Made by a program: the position numbers and the translations under genes. A DNA stretch of 64,000 nucleotides from Lacipirellulaceae bacterium. Lineage in GTDB: Bacteria; Planctomycetota; Planctomycetia; Pirellulales; Lacipirellulaceae. The first letter of the stretch is position 1. The number at the start of each line of letters is the position of its first letter. Location of the stretch: assembly GCA_040218535.1 (NCBI GenBank), contig JAVJRG010000005.1:186001-250000 (forward strand). Direction: 5' to 3'. Under the pieces are notes generated by a model. The model had not been told where the DNA came from and made no database searches. It was given only the letters and a program-made list of their open reading frames with translations. Shown one piece after another: positions 4,598 to 54,052 of this stretch.

Positions 4598-4635
4598 AAG
4601 AATTTTCCTTGTTGATTTGGTAAGCGTTATTTTTT

Positions 4636-4663
4636 GGCCACGGATTGCACGGATGACACGGAT
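4636..4663. repeat. Dispersed ATCCGTG-type repeat, single copy
   Basis: Reads GGCCACGGATTGCACGGATG followed by ACACGGAT on the plus strand, the reverse complement of the copies at 1450-1481 and 28558-28586. It lies in the short gap between the glycine-rich repeat gene and the EF-hand-like gene. Confidence 0.75.
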
Positions 4664-4679
4664 TTTGGATTGTTGCGTT

Positions 4680-10862: not shown

Positions 10863-10917
10863 GCCTGTAAGGTGCGTGAGCGACAGCGAACGCATCATCG
10901 TGACATTTCCCGGTTCC

Positions 10918-10989
10918 GAGCCGTGATGCGTTAGCACTCGGGTTGAAGCTTTGGCGAAGTGCTACCCGTGAGCTTACGCTTCACGGCTC
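10918..10989. repeat. Inverted repeat spanning the 3' end of the 203-aa gene
   Basis: Arm 10918-10945 (GAGCCGTGATGCGTTAGCAC) pairs with 10963-10989. It belongs to a family also seen at 22728-22798, 34780-34808, 45282-45383 and 53952-54023. The right arm encodes the last residues and TAA stop of the gene on the minus strand. Confidence 0.75.
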
Positions 10990-11585
10990 AGTGAGAGTGT
11001 ATATCGCCACCGCACGGTTGCAGGCAGTTGATCTGGTGGGGCGATCTCTCTACGCACCAACAATTCTTGCTGATGGTAGGCGACTTCAACCGGCGGGGTT
11101 CCCTGAGGTTCATCCTTGAGCGGCAGGGCAGCGATGTCGAGCTTGCCCAGAGGTGTTTTCACGGAGTGAATGGCTTCACCAGACGCGAGTGTCGATTCGT
11201 AGGAGAGCTGGTAGACGCTACTCACCCGCGGGATGGCTGCCTTCATGCGACAGGCGGCGTCGAACAGGATGCCGGGCTTCTGGGGGTCGTTCGAAGGTTC
11301 GACCGTGAGCGACCAATGGCAGGACCCGCTCATGCCGACCAGCGCGGCAAACTTGCGTCCCGCGATTTCTTCCAGGTTAAGATCCTGATAAGCGGGGCTT
11401 TCATGGTTGCTCGAAATTCCAGCCTCGACGGATTCCAGGGCTAGCACGCTCCGTTCGCCCGCGACGAGGTAGATTTTGTGGCAGTAGCGGTCGGCGAGTT
11501 GAAAGAACTCGACGCGGACGCCACGACTGTTCTCATCCAGTGACTCAACCGATTTATTATTAATCACAGAGGACACGGAGAACAC
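10974..11585 (-). CDS. Hypothetical protein whose two ends lie in repeat DNA
   Basis: 203 residues if the GTG at 11585 is used; GTG at 11576 and 11567 are equally possible. All three lie in the CACAGAGGACACGG-type repeat at 11565-11590, and there is no ATG before codon 85. The body (VEFFQLADRYCHKIYLVAGE and LFDAACRMKAAIPRVSSVYQ) reads as a normal soluble beta-rich protein with no signal peptide. The C-terminal SREA and its TAA stop are encoded by another repeat family. No known domain recognised. Next upstream on the same strand is prfB, about 180 nt away. Confidence 0.65.
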   Translation of the reverse strand: MFSVSSVINNKSVESLDENSRGVRVEFFQLADRYCHKIYLVAGERSVLALESVEAGISSNHESPAYQDLNLEEIAGRKFAALVGMSGSCHWSLTVEPSNDPQKPGILFDAACRMKAAIPRVSSVYQLSYESTLASGEAIHSVKTPLGKLDIAALPLKDEPQGTPPVEVAYHQQELLVRREIAPPDQLPATVRWRYTLSLSREA

Positions 11586-11756
11586 GGAGGTTGTTGGAGA
11601 GCCAAAGCTCGAAAGGGTAATTGCAATTCGAAATGTTAGTGTTTTTTGGCGAGAGTATTATGCAGTGAAAGACGATTGATTTCGCTTAATTTCTTGCAGC
11701 TTGTCAGCCTTGCGAGAATTATGCATCGAACCTCCGTGTTCTCCGTGATCTCTGTG
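11565..11756. repeat. Inverted pair of CACAGAGGACACGG-type repeats
   Basis: Copy one at 11565-11590 (core GACACGGAGAACACGGAGG) and its inverted copy at 11731-11756 (CCTCCGTGTTCTCCGTGATC) flank a spacer of about 140 bases between prfB and the 203-aa gene. The copies are almost perfectly complementary and could form a long stem or result from paired insertion. Confidence 0.8.
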
Positions 11757-11766
11757 GTAAAAAAAT

Positions 11767-22489: not shown

Positions 22490-22819
22490 GTGCTGGTTTT
22501 CCTAGCCTTGGTTCGCCCTAGAGCGAACACGTCGATACCCCGACTGGCAGTTTGCCAATCGGCTTGCCCCCCCGGGCAGGACTGCTCAGAGTCAGCCGCG
22601 CGAAATCCAGCGCGCAGCCGAGACGTTAGAGCCGTCATAAACGGTATCGGCGGCCTAATCGGCAAACTTTCACAGCAGTTGCCGGAATTGCGAAGAAGTG
22701 GTGCTAGCAGTGCTTGCAACGGTCTCCGAGCCGTCAGGCGTAAGCCGGCGGGTAGTGGCTTGAGAGAGTTTCACCCGTCGGGTTACGCCTGACAGCTCAG
22801 GAGGGAAACCAGCGTAGTA
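22490..22819. other. Intergenic region (330 bp) with one repeat
   Basis: Upstream of the TolC-family gene and downstream of the 755-aa gene, same strand. It contains the inverted repeat at 22728-22798 and no convincing ORF. The promoter of the TolC gene is presumably here, but no strong -35/-10 pair stands out. Confidence 0.5.
22728..22798. repeat. Inverted repeat (GCCGTCAGGCGTAAGCC type)
   Basis: Arms 22728-22753 (GAGCCGTCAGGCGTAAGCCG) and 22773-22798 are imperfect inverted copies. Same family as 53952-54023 and related to 10918-10989 and 45282-45383. Confidence 0.8.
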
Positions 22820-28543: not shown

Positions 28544-29452
28544 TTGAATGAACAGCTATCCGTGTCATCCGTGAAATTCGTGTCCCAAACTAACGTCTCC
28601 AATCCGCTACCCATTGGCCAATGTGCAACGCTTGCGTGCATTTGGGAAGCCACTGCGGCCAAGCCGGGAAATGTTTATCGAGGCGCGGACTTTGAAGACT
28701 TAACTTACGTCGATTTCCTGAACAGTGCAGCAGTCATCGGGCCGATCCTTGAGAACACCCCGCAGGAGCGAGTCGGTCGAGTTGTACGTGACGCGGTCCA
28801 AGCGACTCAGCAAGCAGTTGGCACCAACACGAATCTGGGCATCCTCTTACTCATTGCGCCATTGGCGGCACAGGGTCTGGGCGATGAGCAAATCGAGCTT
28901 GAGAGAGTTCTTGATTCACTTACAAGCGACGATACGGAAAATGTCTACGAGGCGATTCGCTTGGCTAACCCCGGTGGGTTGGGTGAAGTCAATTCCGCTG
29001 ATGTCAATGAGAAAGACGTTCCCAAGATCACATTAGTTGAAGCAATGGAACTGGCTGCAGACCGCGATTTGGTTGCGCGGCAATATGCCAATGGATTTTC
29101 AGAAGTGCATTGGTTGGCTGATCGAATCGAGGAGTTTTATGGGGGCGGGGACTCACTGAACGATGCGATCGTTCGTGGTTTCCTAGAACTGCTGGGTCGT
29201 GAGCCGGACAGTCTGATTGCGCGGAAATGTGGGGTTGAGTTTGCGCGTAAGGTTTCGGCTCGTGGGGCCGCCGTGCTGAAGTACCATGGCCAGCGGAGCA
29301 ATGAATATCAGGGGGCACTGGCTGATCTTGATTTTTATCTGCGTAGTGACGGGCATCGTTTGAATCCTGGCACCAGTGCCGACATGGTAGCCGCGGCACT
29401 GTTTGTTTTGCTTAGAGATGGTCGCCTGCGCTTGCCTGTGCGATATTATTGA
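28544..29452 (+). CDS. CitG/triphosphoribosyl-dephospho-CoA synthase family protein
   Basis: Up to 302 residues. Family motifs: EATAAKPGNVYRGADFEDL, GTNTNLGILLLIAPL, RLANPGGLGE and, near the end, HRLNPGTSADMVAAALFVLL. Classic members make the prosthetic group precursor of citrate lyase or malonate decarboxylase, but no lyase genes are near. Relatives in methylotrophs and planctomycetes sit with tetrahydromethanopterin-linked C1 genes, and here the next gene is PTPS-like, so a pterin/C1 cofactor role is more likely (inference). The start is unclear: TTG 28544 and GTG 28562, 28571 and 28580 are all within or at the edge of an ATCCGTG repeat. Confidence 0.82.
   Translation: MNEQLSVSSVKFVSQTNVSNPLPIGQCATLACIWEATAAKPGNVYRGADFEDLTYVDFLNSAAVIGPILENTPQERVGRVVRDAVQATQQAVGTNTNLGILLLIAPLAAQGLGDEQIELERVLDSLTSDDTENVYEAIRLANPGGLGEVNSADVNEKDVPKITLVEAMELAADRDLVARQYANGFSEVHWLADRIEEFYGGGDSLNDAIVRGFLELLGREPDSLIARKCGVEFARKVSARGAAVLKYHGQRSNEYQGALADLDFYLRSDGHRLNPGTSADMVAAALFVLLRDGRLRLPVRYY
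28558..28586. repeat. ATCCGTG-type repeat at the 5' end of the CitG-like gene
   Basis: ATCCGTGTCATCCGTGAAAT then TCGTGTCCC. The in-frame GTG codons inside the repeat are among the only candidate start codons of the gene. Confidence 0.75.
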
Positions 29453-34573: not shown

Positions 34574-34762
34574 ATGAACTTAAGCCAGTTTTACAACGAA
34601 GTTGCCCGTAAAGCCGACACCAAGGGAACTTCAATCAGCGCTGCTGAAACGAAGCGGGTGCTATCGGAAATGTTCTTGCTGCTGGCGAAGATGGACGCGA
34701 CTGATGCAACCGCGATCTTGTCGAAGGGGCTGACGGCGGCGAAGAAGAAGGGCAAGAAGTAG
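34574..34762 (+). CDS. Small basic protein, possibly HU-like N-terminal fold
   Basis: 62 residues ending in a lysine tail (AAKKKGKK). The first half (MNLSQFYNEVARKADTKGTS, then ETKRVLSEMFLLL) has the spacing of the first two helices of HU/IHF proteins (INAVAEKADLSKKDATKAVD-like), but the beta-arm half is missing. It might bind nucleic acid through the lysine tail; this is inference. The ATG at 34574 follows a plausible promoter; the in-frame extension from 34517 looks non-coding. A family-D repeat arm follows the gene. Confidence 0.7.
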   Translation: MNLSQFYNEVARKADTKGTSISAAETKRVLSEMFLLLAKMDATDATAILSKGLTAAKKKGKK

Positions 34763-34779
34763 CCGTTTGTCTCGGAGTT

Positions 34780-34808
34780 ACCCGAGAGCTGACGCTGCTC
34801 GGCTCAGG
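34780..34808. repeat. Single arm of the ACCCGAGAGC repeat family
   Basis: ACCCGAGAGCTGACGCTGCT then CGGCTCAGG lies between the 62-aa gene and hemW. It matches the right-hand arm of the element inside the penicillin-acylase gene (45355-45383) over the ACCCGAGAGCT part. Confidence 0.65.
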
Positions 34809-43226: not shown

Positions 43227-43249
43227 GCGGATCAGTAGCTGGCGAAATG

Positions 43250-43280
43250 CTGAACACTGAAAACTGAGCACTGAAAACTC
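43250..43280. repeat. TTTTCAGTGTTCAG-type repeat
   Basis: Tandem copies of CTGAACACTGAAAACTGAGC and CACTGAAAACTC between two ABC genes. Same family as 44221-44368, 51094-51240 and 53913-54052. It contains a possible GTG start of the binding-protein gene. Confidence 0.75.
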
Positions 43281-44187: not shown

Positions 44188-44220
44188 GCCAGCAACTAGT
44201 TCAGTGCGTTTGAGGGAAGT

Positions 44221-44368
44221 AGTTTTCAGTGTTCAGTTTTCAGTGTTCAGTCTTGTGGCAGCGTGCCAACGCAGCACCGTGCGACTCCAGACCTCGGGCT
44301 TCGGACTTCCGGTCTCTTACGGTAACATGACGAGCACTGAAAACTGAACACTGAAATCTAAAAACTCA
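44221..44368. repeat. Inverted pair of TTTTCAGTGTTCAG repeats
   Basis: Two tandem copies at 44221-44251 (AGTTTTCAGTGTTCAGTTTT) and inverted copies at 44333-44368 (GAGCACTGAAAACTGAACAC) flank about 80 bases between the divergent permease and acylase genes. Confidence 0.8.
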
Positions 44369-44372
44369 GCGC

Positions 44373-46691
44373 ATGGAAGTCATCCCCACCAAATCCGCCA
44401 AGTGCCAGTTCAAGGCAGTTCGAGACGAGCATGGCACGCCCCATGTGACGGCTCCCACTTGGCGGGAAGCGATTTACGCGCTGGGCTTTTTGCACGCGAC
44501 GGATCGGCCCACGCAGATTTTCTTTTCCCGCACCGTTGCGAGCGGTCAGGCGGCCGAACGGATTGCGGACAAGCCGGAACTCGTCGAGACGGACCGTTTT
44601 TTTCGTCGGGCAGGGCTGCATCTTGGAATTGAACGGGATGCGGACCTTTTGCGTCCCGACGTTCGCCAGCAACTCGATTGGTACTGCGAAGGGGTGAATG
44701 ATGCTTTGCAGGATTCAAGCCGTTCGCTGCCGATGTTGGTGACTGGCTTTCGCCCGCGGCCTTGGAGCCCGAGTTCTGTCCTTCTGATCGGAAACCTGCT
44801 CAGCTTTGCAGGCTTAGCCGTCGGCGAACAAGAGAATGAACGTCTGCTGGTTGATCTCGTGCAAACTGGAGTGAAGCCGGAACTCTTGCGAGAGTTGTTC
44901 GGCCCCTATCTCGCAGACGTTGACCTGGATGTTCTCAAGGAAGTGACGATGGAGCGGCGACTCTCTGACGATGCTCTTGAAATGCTCACTGACTTACCGC
45001 GCCTGGCCGGTAGCAACGCCTGGGCGGTGAGTCCCCGTCGCAGCGCGACCGGCGGCGCGTTGTTGGCTTCAGATCCGCATCTGGAAATCAATCGTCTTCC
45101 CGCCATTTGGTACGAAGTGGCTTTGCATTGGGGAGAAGAGGGCAGCGAGCAGTACGCCATGGGCGCGACGCTGCCCGGTTGCCCCTTAATGGCGGTGGGA
45201 AGAACGGAAAAACTTGCTTGGGGCGTGACTTACCTGCACGCGGACACGAGCGACTTTTTTATCGAAGATGTTAGGAAGCAATCTGAGTCGAGTAGCGTAA
45301 GCTCCCTTGAGCCGAGAAGCGTCAGCTCTCGGGTTGAAGCGGAACCGAGCGAACAACCCGAGAGCTTACGCACCTCGACTCAGGATTTGGTACACGAAAA
45401 GTGGCAGTACCGACGTGGCGAAACCTGGTACGACTTCCGACTTCGAGAAGAGCCGATTCATTGCAAAGGGGGCAAAACGCTTCTCTATCGCGTCTTCGAG
45501 AACGACCAAGGCACACTAGGCCGCGATCTTACGGGCGGAGCTGATGGGAAGTACCTTGCGGCTAAGTGGGTTGGCACGGGCGAAGGGGCAGGGGATTCGA
45601 TTGGATGCTGGTTAGATGTGATTCATTCACCCACGACGAAGGAAGCCATGGATGTCGTGCGTGAGAATTCCCATCCAACCCTTGTCTGGGTGTTCGCCGA
45701 TTGCGAAGGTCATATCGGACGGCAAGCGAGTGGTTGGTTACCCAAGCGAGCCGAGGGGCATCTTGGAGTTGTGCCCGTCCCCGCTTGGGAGAAAAAGAAT
45801 CATTGGCAAGGCGTACAAACGAGTGAACTGCTGCCCTCCCTCTATGATCCTCCTGAGGGATACTTGGCGAGCGCGAACGAAGATTTGAATCGGGCCTTCG
45901 ATTGGACGATCAACACGCACCGGTTGGTTGAGTATCGCAAGCGTCGCATTGTTGAAGTGCTGCATGAGAATCACGCGGCAACCATCGAGGACATGCAAGC
46001 CCTGCAGTACGACGTACTTAGCCTCCAGGCCCGCGATCTGTTGCCGGTCTTCCTACCACACGTGCCAGAGGGTGAGTTCAAGGAATTGCTCGTCACTTGG
46101 GACCTTCGCTACACACCCGAAAGCATCGCCGCCACGGCCTTTCAAATCCTCTATCGGCATGTGCTATTGGAAATCTTCGGGCATAAGGAGGGCATCGGCT
46201 GGCAGCGGATGTTTTACTTGGCCACGCGAATCGGGTACTCATCGATGGTCCTCACAGCGATTGATTCATTGCTGCTACGGGAAGATTCTCATTGGTGGTC
46301 GGGACGGGATAAGTCGCAACTCCTTGGCCAAGCCGCTTCAGCAGCTTTGGCTGAAGAGTTGAAACCGTGGGGCGAAGTGAATTCGTTTCATTTTGCAAAT
46401 CGCTACTTCGAGCAAAGTCGTGTGGGTCGACTTCTAGGCTTTCACACGGACCGGATGCCGATGCCGGGTTGCGGGGCGACGCCGTTCCAAGGGCACCTCT
46501 TGCAGACGGCCACGCGTGAGTCGAGCTTCGCCCCGAGCTATCACTTCGTTACGGATATGAGCACCGACGAGGCGTGGGCGAATCTCCCCGGCGGCCCAAG
46601 CGAAAGCCGCTTTAGCAAGTGGTACAAAAGCGATATCGTCCGCTGGGCTGAGGGCGAATACCGGCGGTTGACCGGATCGTCTGTCGGCTAA
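44373..46691 (+). CDS. Penicillin acylase-family Ntn hydrolase with in-frame palindrome
   Basis: 772 residues. Nucleophile region: LAGSNAWAVSPRR, where Ser214 would become the new N-terminus after self-cleavage; SDPHLEINRLPAIWYEV follows, as in the family. The N-terminal segment VRDEHGTPHVTAPTWREAIY and GFLHATDRPTQIF matches the alpha subunit. Typical targets are acyl-homoserine lactones, acylated antibiotics or other amides. No signal peptide is visible, which is unusual. Residues about 304-337 (SESSSVSSLEPRSVSSRVEA and on) are encoded by a palindromic repeat and look low-complexity, yet the frame is intact. Confidence 0.88.
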   Translation: MEVIPTKSAKCQFKAVRDEHGTPHVTAPTWREAIYALGFLHATDRPTQIFFSRTVASGQAAERIADKPELVETDRFFRRAGLHLGIERDADLLRPDVRQQLDWYCEGVNDALQDSSRSLPMLVTGFRPRPWSPSSVLLIGNLLSFAGLAVGEQENERLLVDLVQTGVKPELLRELFGPYLADVDLDVLKEVTMERRLSDDALEMLTDLPRLAGSNAWAVSPRRSATGGALLASDPHLEINRLPAIWYEVALHWGEEGSEQYAMGATLPGCPLMAVGRTEKLAWGVTYLHADTSDFFIEDVRKQSESSSVSSLEPRSVSSRVEAEPSEQPESLRTSTQDLVHEKWQYRRGETWYDFRLREEPIHCKGGKTLLYRVFENDQGTLGRDLTGGADGKYLAAKWVGTGEGAGDSIGCWLDVIHSPTTKEAMDVVRENSHPTLVWVFADCEGHIGRQASGWLPKRAEGHLGVVPVPAWEKKNHWQGVQTSELLPSLYDPPEGYLASANEDLNRAFDWTINTHRLVEYRKRRIVEVLHENHAATIEDMQALQYDVLSLQARDLLPVFLPHVPEGEFKELLVTWDLRYTPESIAATAFQILYRHVLLEIFGHKEGIGWQRMFYLATRIGYSSMVLTAIDSLLLREDSHWWSGRDKSQLLGQAASAALAEELKPWGEVNSFHFANRYFEQSRVGRLLGFHTDRMPMPGCGATPFQGHLLQTATRESSFAPSYHFVTDMSTDEAWANLPGGPSESRFSKWYKSDIVRWAEGEYRRLTGSSVG
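45282..45383. repeat. In-frame palindromic element inside the acylase gene
   Basis: Outer arms 45282-45303 (CTGAGTCGAGTAGCGTAAGC) and 45362-45383 pair at 20 of 22 bases; inner arm GCGTCAGCTCTCGGGTT (45320-45336) pairs with 45355-45371. About 102 bp or 34 codons, in frame. It matches the intergenic elements at 34780, 53952 and 10918. Confidence 0.8.
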
Positions 46692-51093: not shown

Positions 51094-51240
51094 GTTTTCA
51101 GTTGTCAGTGTTCAATTTTCAGTTCACGGCTGCTGGTGCTTCCGAGCAGTGTGAAGTGCTCTGAGTTACCGGCCTATTCTCAACTTTGTCGTTGGTTTCA
51201 ATCAAGCACTGAACTCTGAAAACTGCTAACTGAAAACTCA
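51094..51240. repeat. Inverted pair of TTTTCAGTGTTCAG repeats
   Basis: GTTTTCAGTTGTCAGTGTTC at 51094-51124 and inverted copies at 51206-51240 (GCACTGAACTCTGAAAACTG) flank about 80 bases between two divergent genes. Confidence 0.78.
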
Positions 51241-53904: not shown

Positions 53905-53912
53905 AGGTTCGT

Positions 53913-54052
53913 TTTCAGTTGGCGGTTTTCAGGTTTCAGTGCTTGATCGATGAGCAGAGAAGCGTAAGCTCTCGGGATACGCAGAGAATCAACGTAAACC
54001 CGACGGCTTACGCCTGACGGCTCCTCCTAAACTGAATACTGAAAACTGTTCT
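53913..54052. repeat. Composite repeat: nested family C and family D elements
   Basis: Outer inverted copies of the TTTTCAGT family (53913-53943 and 54031-54052) enclose an imperfect palindrome (53952-53976, GAGCAGAGAAGCGTAAGCTC, with 53999-54023). The ATG of the Nif3-family gene follows one base after the last arm. Confidence 0.75.

Follow-up and report, generated by a model that had tools for sequence, protein, structure and literature searches.

A gene of the penicillin-amidase family in a bacterium of the Lacipirellulaceae contains a palindrome of 102 nt that leaves the reading frame open, which raises the question of what this palindrome is, how it may have entered a conserved coding sequence and what it means for the encoded enzyme. 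The gene lies in a stretch of 64,000 nucleotides, referred to below as the window, with the following features.

44373–46691, + strand: intact penicillin-amidase family (Ntn-hydrolase) gene, 772 aa, carrying the element (PF01804, ORF, dN/dS)
45282–45383, + strand: whole in-frame palindromic element, 102 nt, 34 codons, residues 304–337, SESSSVSSLEPRSVSSRVEAEPSEQPESLRTSTQ
45285–45305, + strand: REP unit A, truncated on its 3' side, outer palindrome partner of unit C (identical to the latter at 18 of 21 positions)
45309–45334, + strand: REP unit B, 0 mismatches to the family pattern GAGCCGNNNRGCGTNAGCYNNCGGGT
45335–45355, + strand: spacer of 21 nt separating the inverted REP units B and C
45356–45381, − strand: inverted REP unit C, differing from the family pattern at 2 positions
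10917–10991, + strand: other REPIN of the family, overlapping the end of a called gene by 15 nt
22726–22799, − strand: other REPIN of the family, intergenic
34753–34807, + strand: partial REPIN or single REP from this family, overlapping a short called gene by 7 nt
53950–54024, − strand: other REPIN of the family, intergenic

The palindrome, its repeat family and a candidate transposase

The palindrome in the acylase gene is a REPIN, consisting of two inverted REP hairpins and a truncated third one. The doublet of units B and C, which are identical at 22 of 26 positions, is preceded by the truncated unit A, and this composite arrangement recurs, according to a pattern scan, at two further places (L110 and L123). 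Folded as single-stranded DNA, the palindrome reached z-scores of −5.7 in a context of 162 nt and of −6.6 by itself, with 0 of 200 shuffles as good in either case. An initial annotation had described the palindrome with a position, frame and residue range that proved exact, and had assigned it to a family of intergenic repeats, in agreement with the four further copies that the window contains and with the REP units found genome-wide.

The REP unit GAGCCGNNNRGCGTNAGCYNNCGGGT forms a bulged hairpin with a GTNA loop. Allowing up to 2 mismatches, its pattern was found 144 times in the 5.36-Mb genome (73 and 71 units on the two strands), and the reversed pattern gave no match on either strand under the same conditions. 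BLAST of the acylase element against its own genome yielded 50 matches, and a covariance model constructed on 15 copies, including the one in the acylase gene, gave at least 150 hits, with 150 of 3012 first-look candidates scored; merged by place and strand, these hits make up at least 81 places. The hairpin is backed by covariation: among 43 distinct perfect units, the pairs 7-21, 8-20 and 10-19 are formed in 35, 41 and 41 units, compared to shuffle means of 19, 20 and 32, and none of 5000 shuffles reached the observed value for any of them; the R and Y in the pattern favour pairing at 10-19, and pair 7-21 is absent from 8 of the 43 units. Within the fetched stretches, which cover 131 of the 144 units at up to 2 mismatches, 135 units at up to 3 mismatches gave 43 pairs of close neighbours; the orientation is inverted (+−) in 41, and in 35 of these 41 the spacer measures 16–21 nt. 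The family thus has the build of REP doublets (REPINs or BIMEs), with imperfect palindromes within the 20–40 nt expected of a REP unit, in many copies and mostly intergenic, and with inverted pairs separated by a short spacer, units B and C among them.

Other repeats were observed alongside this family. A second, related family of REP doublets consists of CCGNNGGGCGTTAGCCCCCGG and inverted CCGGAACGCGTTAGCGTCCGG with a spacer of 12–13 nt (L208–L225, e.g. L211:2501-2554). Its pattern matched 36 times in 20 stretches, drawn from 100 of the 146 matches listed with later places on C12 and C13 left out; 4 of the 36 belong to the first family, and the remaining 32, including two weak look-alikes (L226 and L227), comprise 30 intergenic matches, one over the 3' end of a gene and one inside a called gene (L226). 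The window also contains the dispersed repeats CTGAACACTGAAAACTGA, in both orientations (43247–43279, 44220–44262, 44327–44373, 51198–51238 and 53911–53950), and ATCCGTGTCATCCGTG, with some inverted pairs (1303–1482, 4631–4668, 11557–11764 and 28558–28589).

The Y1_Tnp domain (PF01797) was matched at eleven places in the genome, ten of them over the curated cut-off. One of the eleven carries REP doublets of the family directly on both sides, as is characteristic of a cognate RAYT gene:

L146:2632-3246: RAYT-like Y1/HUH transposase gene, 204 aa from the listed start (PF01797 E 4e-9, NHVH motif)

No REP at up to 4 mismatches was found within 1.5 kb on each side of the other 10 places. The L146 protein contains the motifs NHVH, WT and YVARQE and scores 35.2 bits against the NCBIfam model for REP-associated tyrosine transposases, below the cut-off of 80, and we therefore regard it as a divergent RAYT candidate. 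Judged by its domain and its flanking repeats, this RAYT-like transposase is the likely mover of the REPINs.

The acylase and its homologs

The acylase ORF matches PF01804 with an E value of 4e-130 and 436 bits, compared to a curated cut-off of 21.3, and penicillin G acylases of known structure were matched by the acylase profile with a best E value of 6.5e-29. In the two alignments with solved acylases that were examined, the region of the insert is covered and nothing of comparable length is inserted there. Homologs at E ≤ 1e-20 were present in 29 of the 39 genomes searched, the own genome included, and one locus per genome was aligned for 28 of these 29, excluding the distant G026 match (L069) and any second paralogs. 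The closest named relative found was Adhaeretor mobilis HG15A2 (80 percent), which belongs to the same genus as the window genome (Lacipirellulaceae, Pirellulales, Planctomycetota).

The conserved ED and the WQYRR-type motif are separated by 44 residues in the window protein, by 37 in A. mobilis and by 7–13 in the 26 others (the count for L043 was taken from the alignment, as the regular expression missed this locus). The element accounts for 34 of the 36 residues beyond the commonest length, which is 8. The initial annotation had predicted a gap of 34 residues in homologs, and indeed the segment is absent from all 26 aligned homologs outside the genus. In a second set of 8 named acylase loci from a contig search, two of which (L202 and L207) are the G004 and G010 loci already counted, 7 are without the segment and the eighth is A. 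mobilis. The acylase of L207/G010 has an insertion of its own, which spans about 58 alignment columns and lies about 45 residues downstream of the REPIN position, so the acylase domain accepts several insertions.

The gene itself is under strong purifying selection. With the insert left out, comparison with A. mobilis gave a dN of 0.122 and a dS of 1.886, and no change was found at the 128 columns that are invariant across the 26 other homologs. Amino-acid changes polarised by the agreement of at least 4 of 6 outgroups numbered 22 on the branch of the window gene and 16 on that of A. mobilis, which gives no sign of decay of the acylase. Given this selection and the retained invariant residues, the insertion is probably tolerated. 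An AlphaFold model from a 9-sequence alignment was too poor for placing the segment in the fold (pLDDT 44.4) and predicted coil at residues 303–343 between two predicted strands. Since the length of the stretch varies in the alignment, the Ser/Glu-rich segment encoded by the REPIN probably lies in a surface loop.

The stretch of 37 residues that A. mobilis has at the REPIN position is unrelated in sequence and non-palindromic, and its DNA shows no folding beyond that of shuffled sequences (z 0.24). Homology between the two inserts was rejected, as the score of their local DNA alignment was reached by 345 of 500 forward shuffles and by 449 of 500 reverse-complement shuffles. Hence, no homolog was found that carries the same segment with non-palindromic DNA, the observation named in the initial annotation as speaking against an inserted element; the stretch in A. 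mobilis has another sequence altogether. Because it is also long, the acylase stretch may have been enlarged before the REPIN arrived, and from the near-intact palindrome at a dS of about 1.9 we infer that the REPIN was inserted after the split from A. mobilis.

A purine-rich dispersed repeat, GGAAGGSGGAAGGCGGAAGG, which occurs as inverted pairs in places, resembles the stretch in the A. mobilis acylase (L042/L200) at the REPIN position. Compared to its own genome, the A. mobilis insert gave weak matches to this repeat, the best other one with an E value of 1.1e-4. At up to 2 mismatches, the purine-rich pattern matched 11 times in A. mobilis (10 besides the insert, two of them overlapping) and 8 times in the window genome; the reversed control pattern was nearly as frequent, with 10 and 6 matches, respectively, so the likeness is only a hint.

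REP copies inside other genes

In order to place the acylase case among the other copies of the family, 89 places were examined, namely the 81 places of the covariance model and 8 more with a perfect REP. Genes were called with a simple hexamer-based method, for which 24 long window ORFs, the acylase among them, served as the training set. Of the 89 places, 61 proved intergenic, 20 overlap the end of a gene and 8 lie within a called gene. As coding DNA makes up 0.81 of the fetched loci and 0.85 of the window, random insertion would be expected to place some 72–76 of the 89 in genes, which argues that REP copies in coding DNA are avoided or purged. The search of other coding sequences suggested in the initial annotation thus left the acylase as the sole gene with a complete REPIN inside a conserved coding domain among these 89 places.

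Four of the 8 intragenic cases (L098, L134, L154 and L164) lie close to the end of a gene, belong to a gene whose start is doubtful or fall within an ORF of 66 aa. Two others are possible cases, kept as such because their REPs occupy variable linkers. A gene for a GDSL hydrolase (PF13472) contains a single REP in frame (L150:2501-2526, encoding EPRGVSPRV) in a variable C-terminal stretch, which is 6 residues longer than in the nearest homolog and not longer than in another homolog; a Pro/Glu-rich protein (L151:2078-3685) has a linker with the REP-like peptides EPSGVSRPV and NPTADAGRL. In a UbiD-family gene on the − strand (L165:2052-3974), a perfect 26-nt REP lies in frame at L165:2501-2526 (C12:1490970-1490995). 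Insertion was rejected for this copy, as no length change was detected relative to the 21 homologs covering the stretch, and the alignment points to replacement or convergence instead.

Origin, alternatives and precedents

We consider it highly probable that the REPIN entered the acylase gene by copying or relocation, with the RAYT-like Y1/HUH transposase as the most likely agent, and that it is translated and tolerated in a permissive stretch of the protein. According to this scenario, a RAYT acting on single-stranded DNA would have moved or copied the REPIN into the gene, to a place in the acylase beta chain where relatives have a short, variable stretch. The 34 REPIN codons would then be translated, adding a Ser/Glu-rich segment that the enzyme would tolerate. 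Translation is suggested by the 34 whole codons being free of stops in the acylase frame, and being in frame, open and in a permissive stretch would explain why the REPIN was not removed by selection. Among 15 aligned doublets read in six frames, 3 have one stop-free frame, 9 have two and 3 have three, so survival of an in-frame REPIN requires luck with the frame in addition to a permissive site. Neutral tolerance, with no new function of the segment, is taken as the default.

An extension of this scenario, which we rate as possible though rather doubtful, is that the acylase stretch is a recurrent landing site that received the REPIN here and a piece of the dispersed purine-rich repeat in A. 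mobilis, independently and in frame in both cases, with the bolder addition that the REP in the UbiD-family gene overwrote native codons. If true, mobile short repeats would repeatedly supply new sequence to one enzyme.

An explanation that we find improbable is that the insertion has been retained for a benefit, the segment altering substrate access, stability or interaction of the acylase as a domesticated loop. The stretch is indeed long in both Adhaeretor-level sequences and short in the 26 others, and both long stretches are hydrophilic by eye, but the two are unrelated to each other and the relatives have only 7–13 residues there. Even less probable is an action at the level of RNA, by pausing, mRNA processing or translational bypass, which would leave some or all of the protein without the 34 residues; in its favour, the hairpin potential is strong as DNA, and the codon before the insert is CAA (Gln) and the last insert codon CAG, but the frame is open throughout, so that no bypass is needed. 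Finally, a chance resemblance of an ordinary variable loop to the repeat, for which the variability of the stretch within the genus could be cited, is refuted by the repeat statistics, i.e. the perfect 26-nt REP with a second inverted unit in family geometry, the empty reversed-pattern control on both strands of the 5.36-Mb genome and the covariance score (E 1.9e-15, though the sequence is among the 15 members of the model).

The REPIN in the acylase gene and its family resemble the REPIN/BIME and RAYT (TnpA_REP) systems in the inverted REP doublet with a spacer of about 20 nt, the bulged and covarying hairpins, the dispersed and mostly intergenic copies and the single Y1 transposase gene flanked by REPs. 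They differ in that the L146 candidate is under the cut-off of the NCBIfam model and in that the family is not tagged by GTAG. The GTAG REP superfamily is described as having a GTAG (or GTRG) tetranucleotide at the foot of the hairpin (PMC3733652), whereas the stem is preceded here by nGAG, with n being T in 31 of 76 perfect units and GAG being part of our search pattern. Class 3 TnpA_Y1 proteins are reported mainly from Planctomycetes, Acidobacteria and Proteobacteria, with the motifs NHVH, W[TA] and YV[VI][AENY]EQ and flanking hairpins with a CnGA foot (PMC6006769). Our case shares with these REPtrons the phylum, NHVH, the W-T motif and gene-flanking hairpins in many copies, but has YVARQE instead of YV[VI][AENY]EQ; a CnGA foot is present in 38 of the 76 perfect units and in 67 of the 135 units at up to 3 mismatches.

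The initial annotation had named the palindromic elements (RPE) of Rickettsia as the precedent. By description, the likeness holds for palindromic repeats translated in frame within unrelated genes: RPE are given as about 150 bp long, in ten families and with nearly half of the copies in genes (review PMC10969869), and the acylase element, of 102 nt compared to these about 150 bp, likewise lies in an intact conserved gene, keeps the frame and is lacking from homologs outside the genus. As the sole precedent, RPE are too narrow, since in-frame REPs have already been published (PMC3733652, PMC6006769). Intragenic in-frame REPs were catalogued in many species in 2013 (BMC Genomics, PMC3733652), with most GTAG cases in the verrucomicrobium Opitutus terrae of the PVC superphylum; for the species baltica, the same paper describes more than one REP family together with numerous genes of tyrosine transposases that are flanked by repeats. 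Its intragenic REPs share with ours the doublets and groups within genes and the inserts of 20–30 residues and more; REP family, phylum and host gene are different, and its main text does not contain the word acylase. A later study reports that REP insertions inside transposase genes of subclass 2.4 stay in frame, and discusses REP insertions in loops or linkers, of which those in loops may be harmless (PMC6006769, 2018). That there is no described equivalent in this group holds in so far as our literature search, with supplementary tables outside its scope, found no planctomycete case of an in-frame REP, but O. terrae belongs to the same PVC superphylum (PMC3733652).

In-frame REP insertion is therefore an already documented kind of event with an ordinary mechanism, to which a case in a planctomycete acylase is added, together with a candidate transposase and relatives lacking the element. 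The case indicates that a conserved hydrolase is able to absorb a peptide of 34 residues from a mobile element, and offers a clean system for studying the neutral versus functional fate of such inserts.
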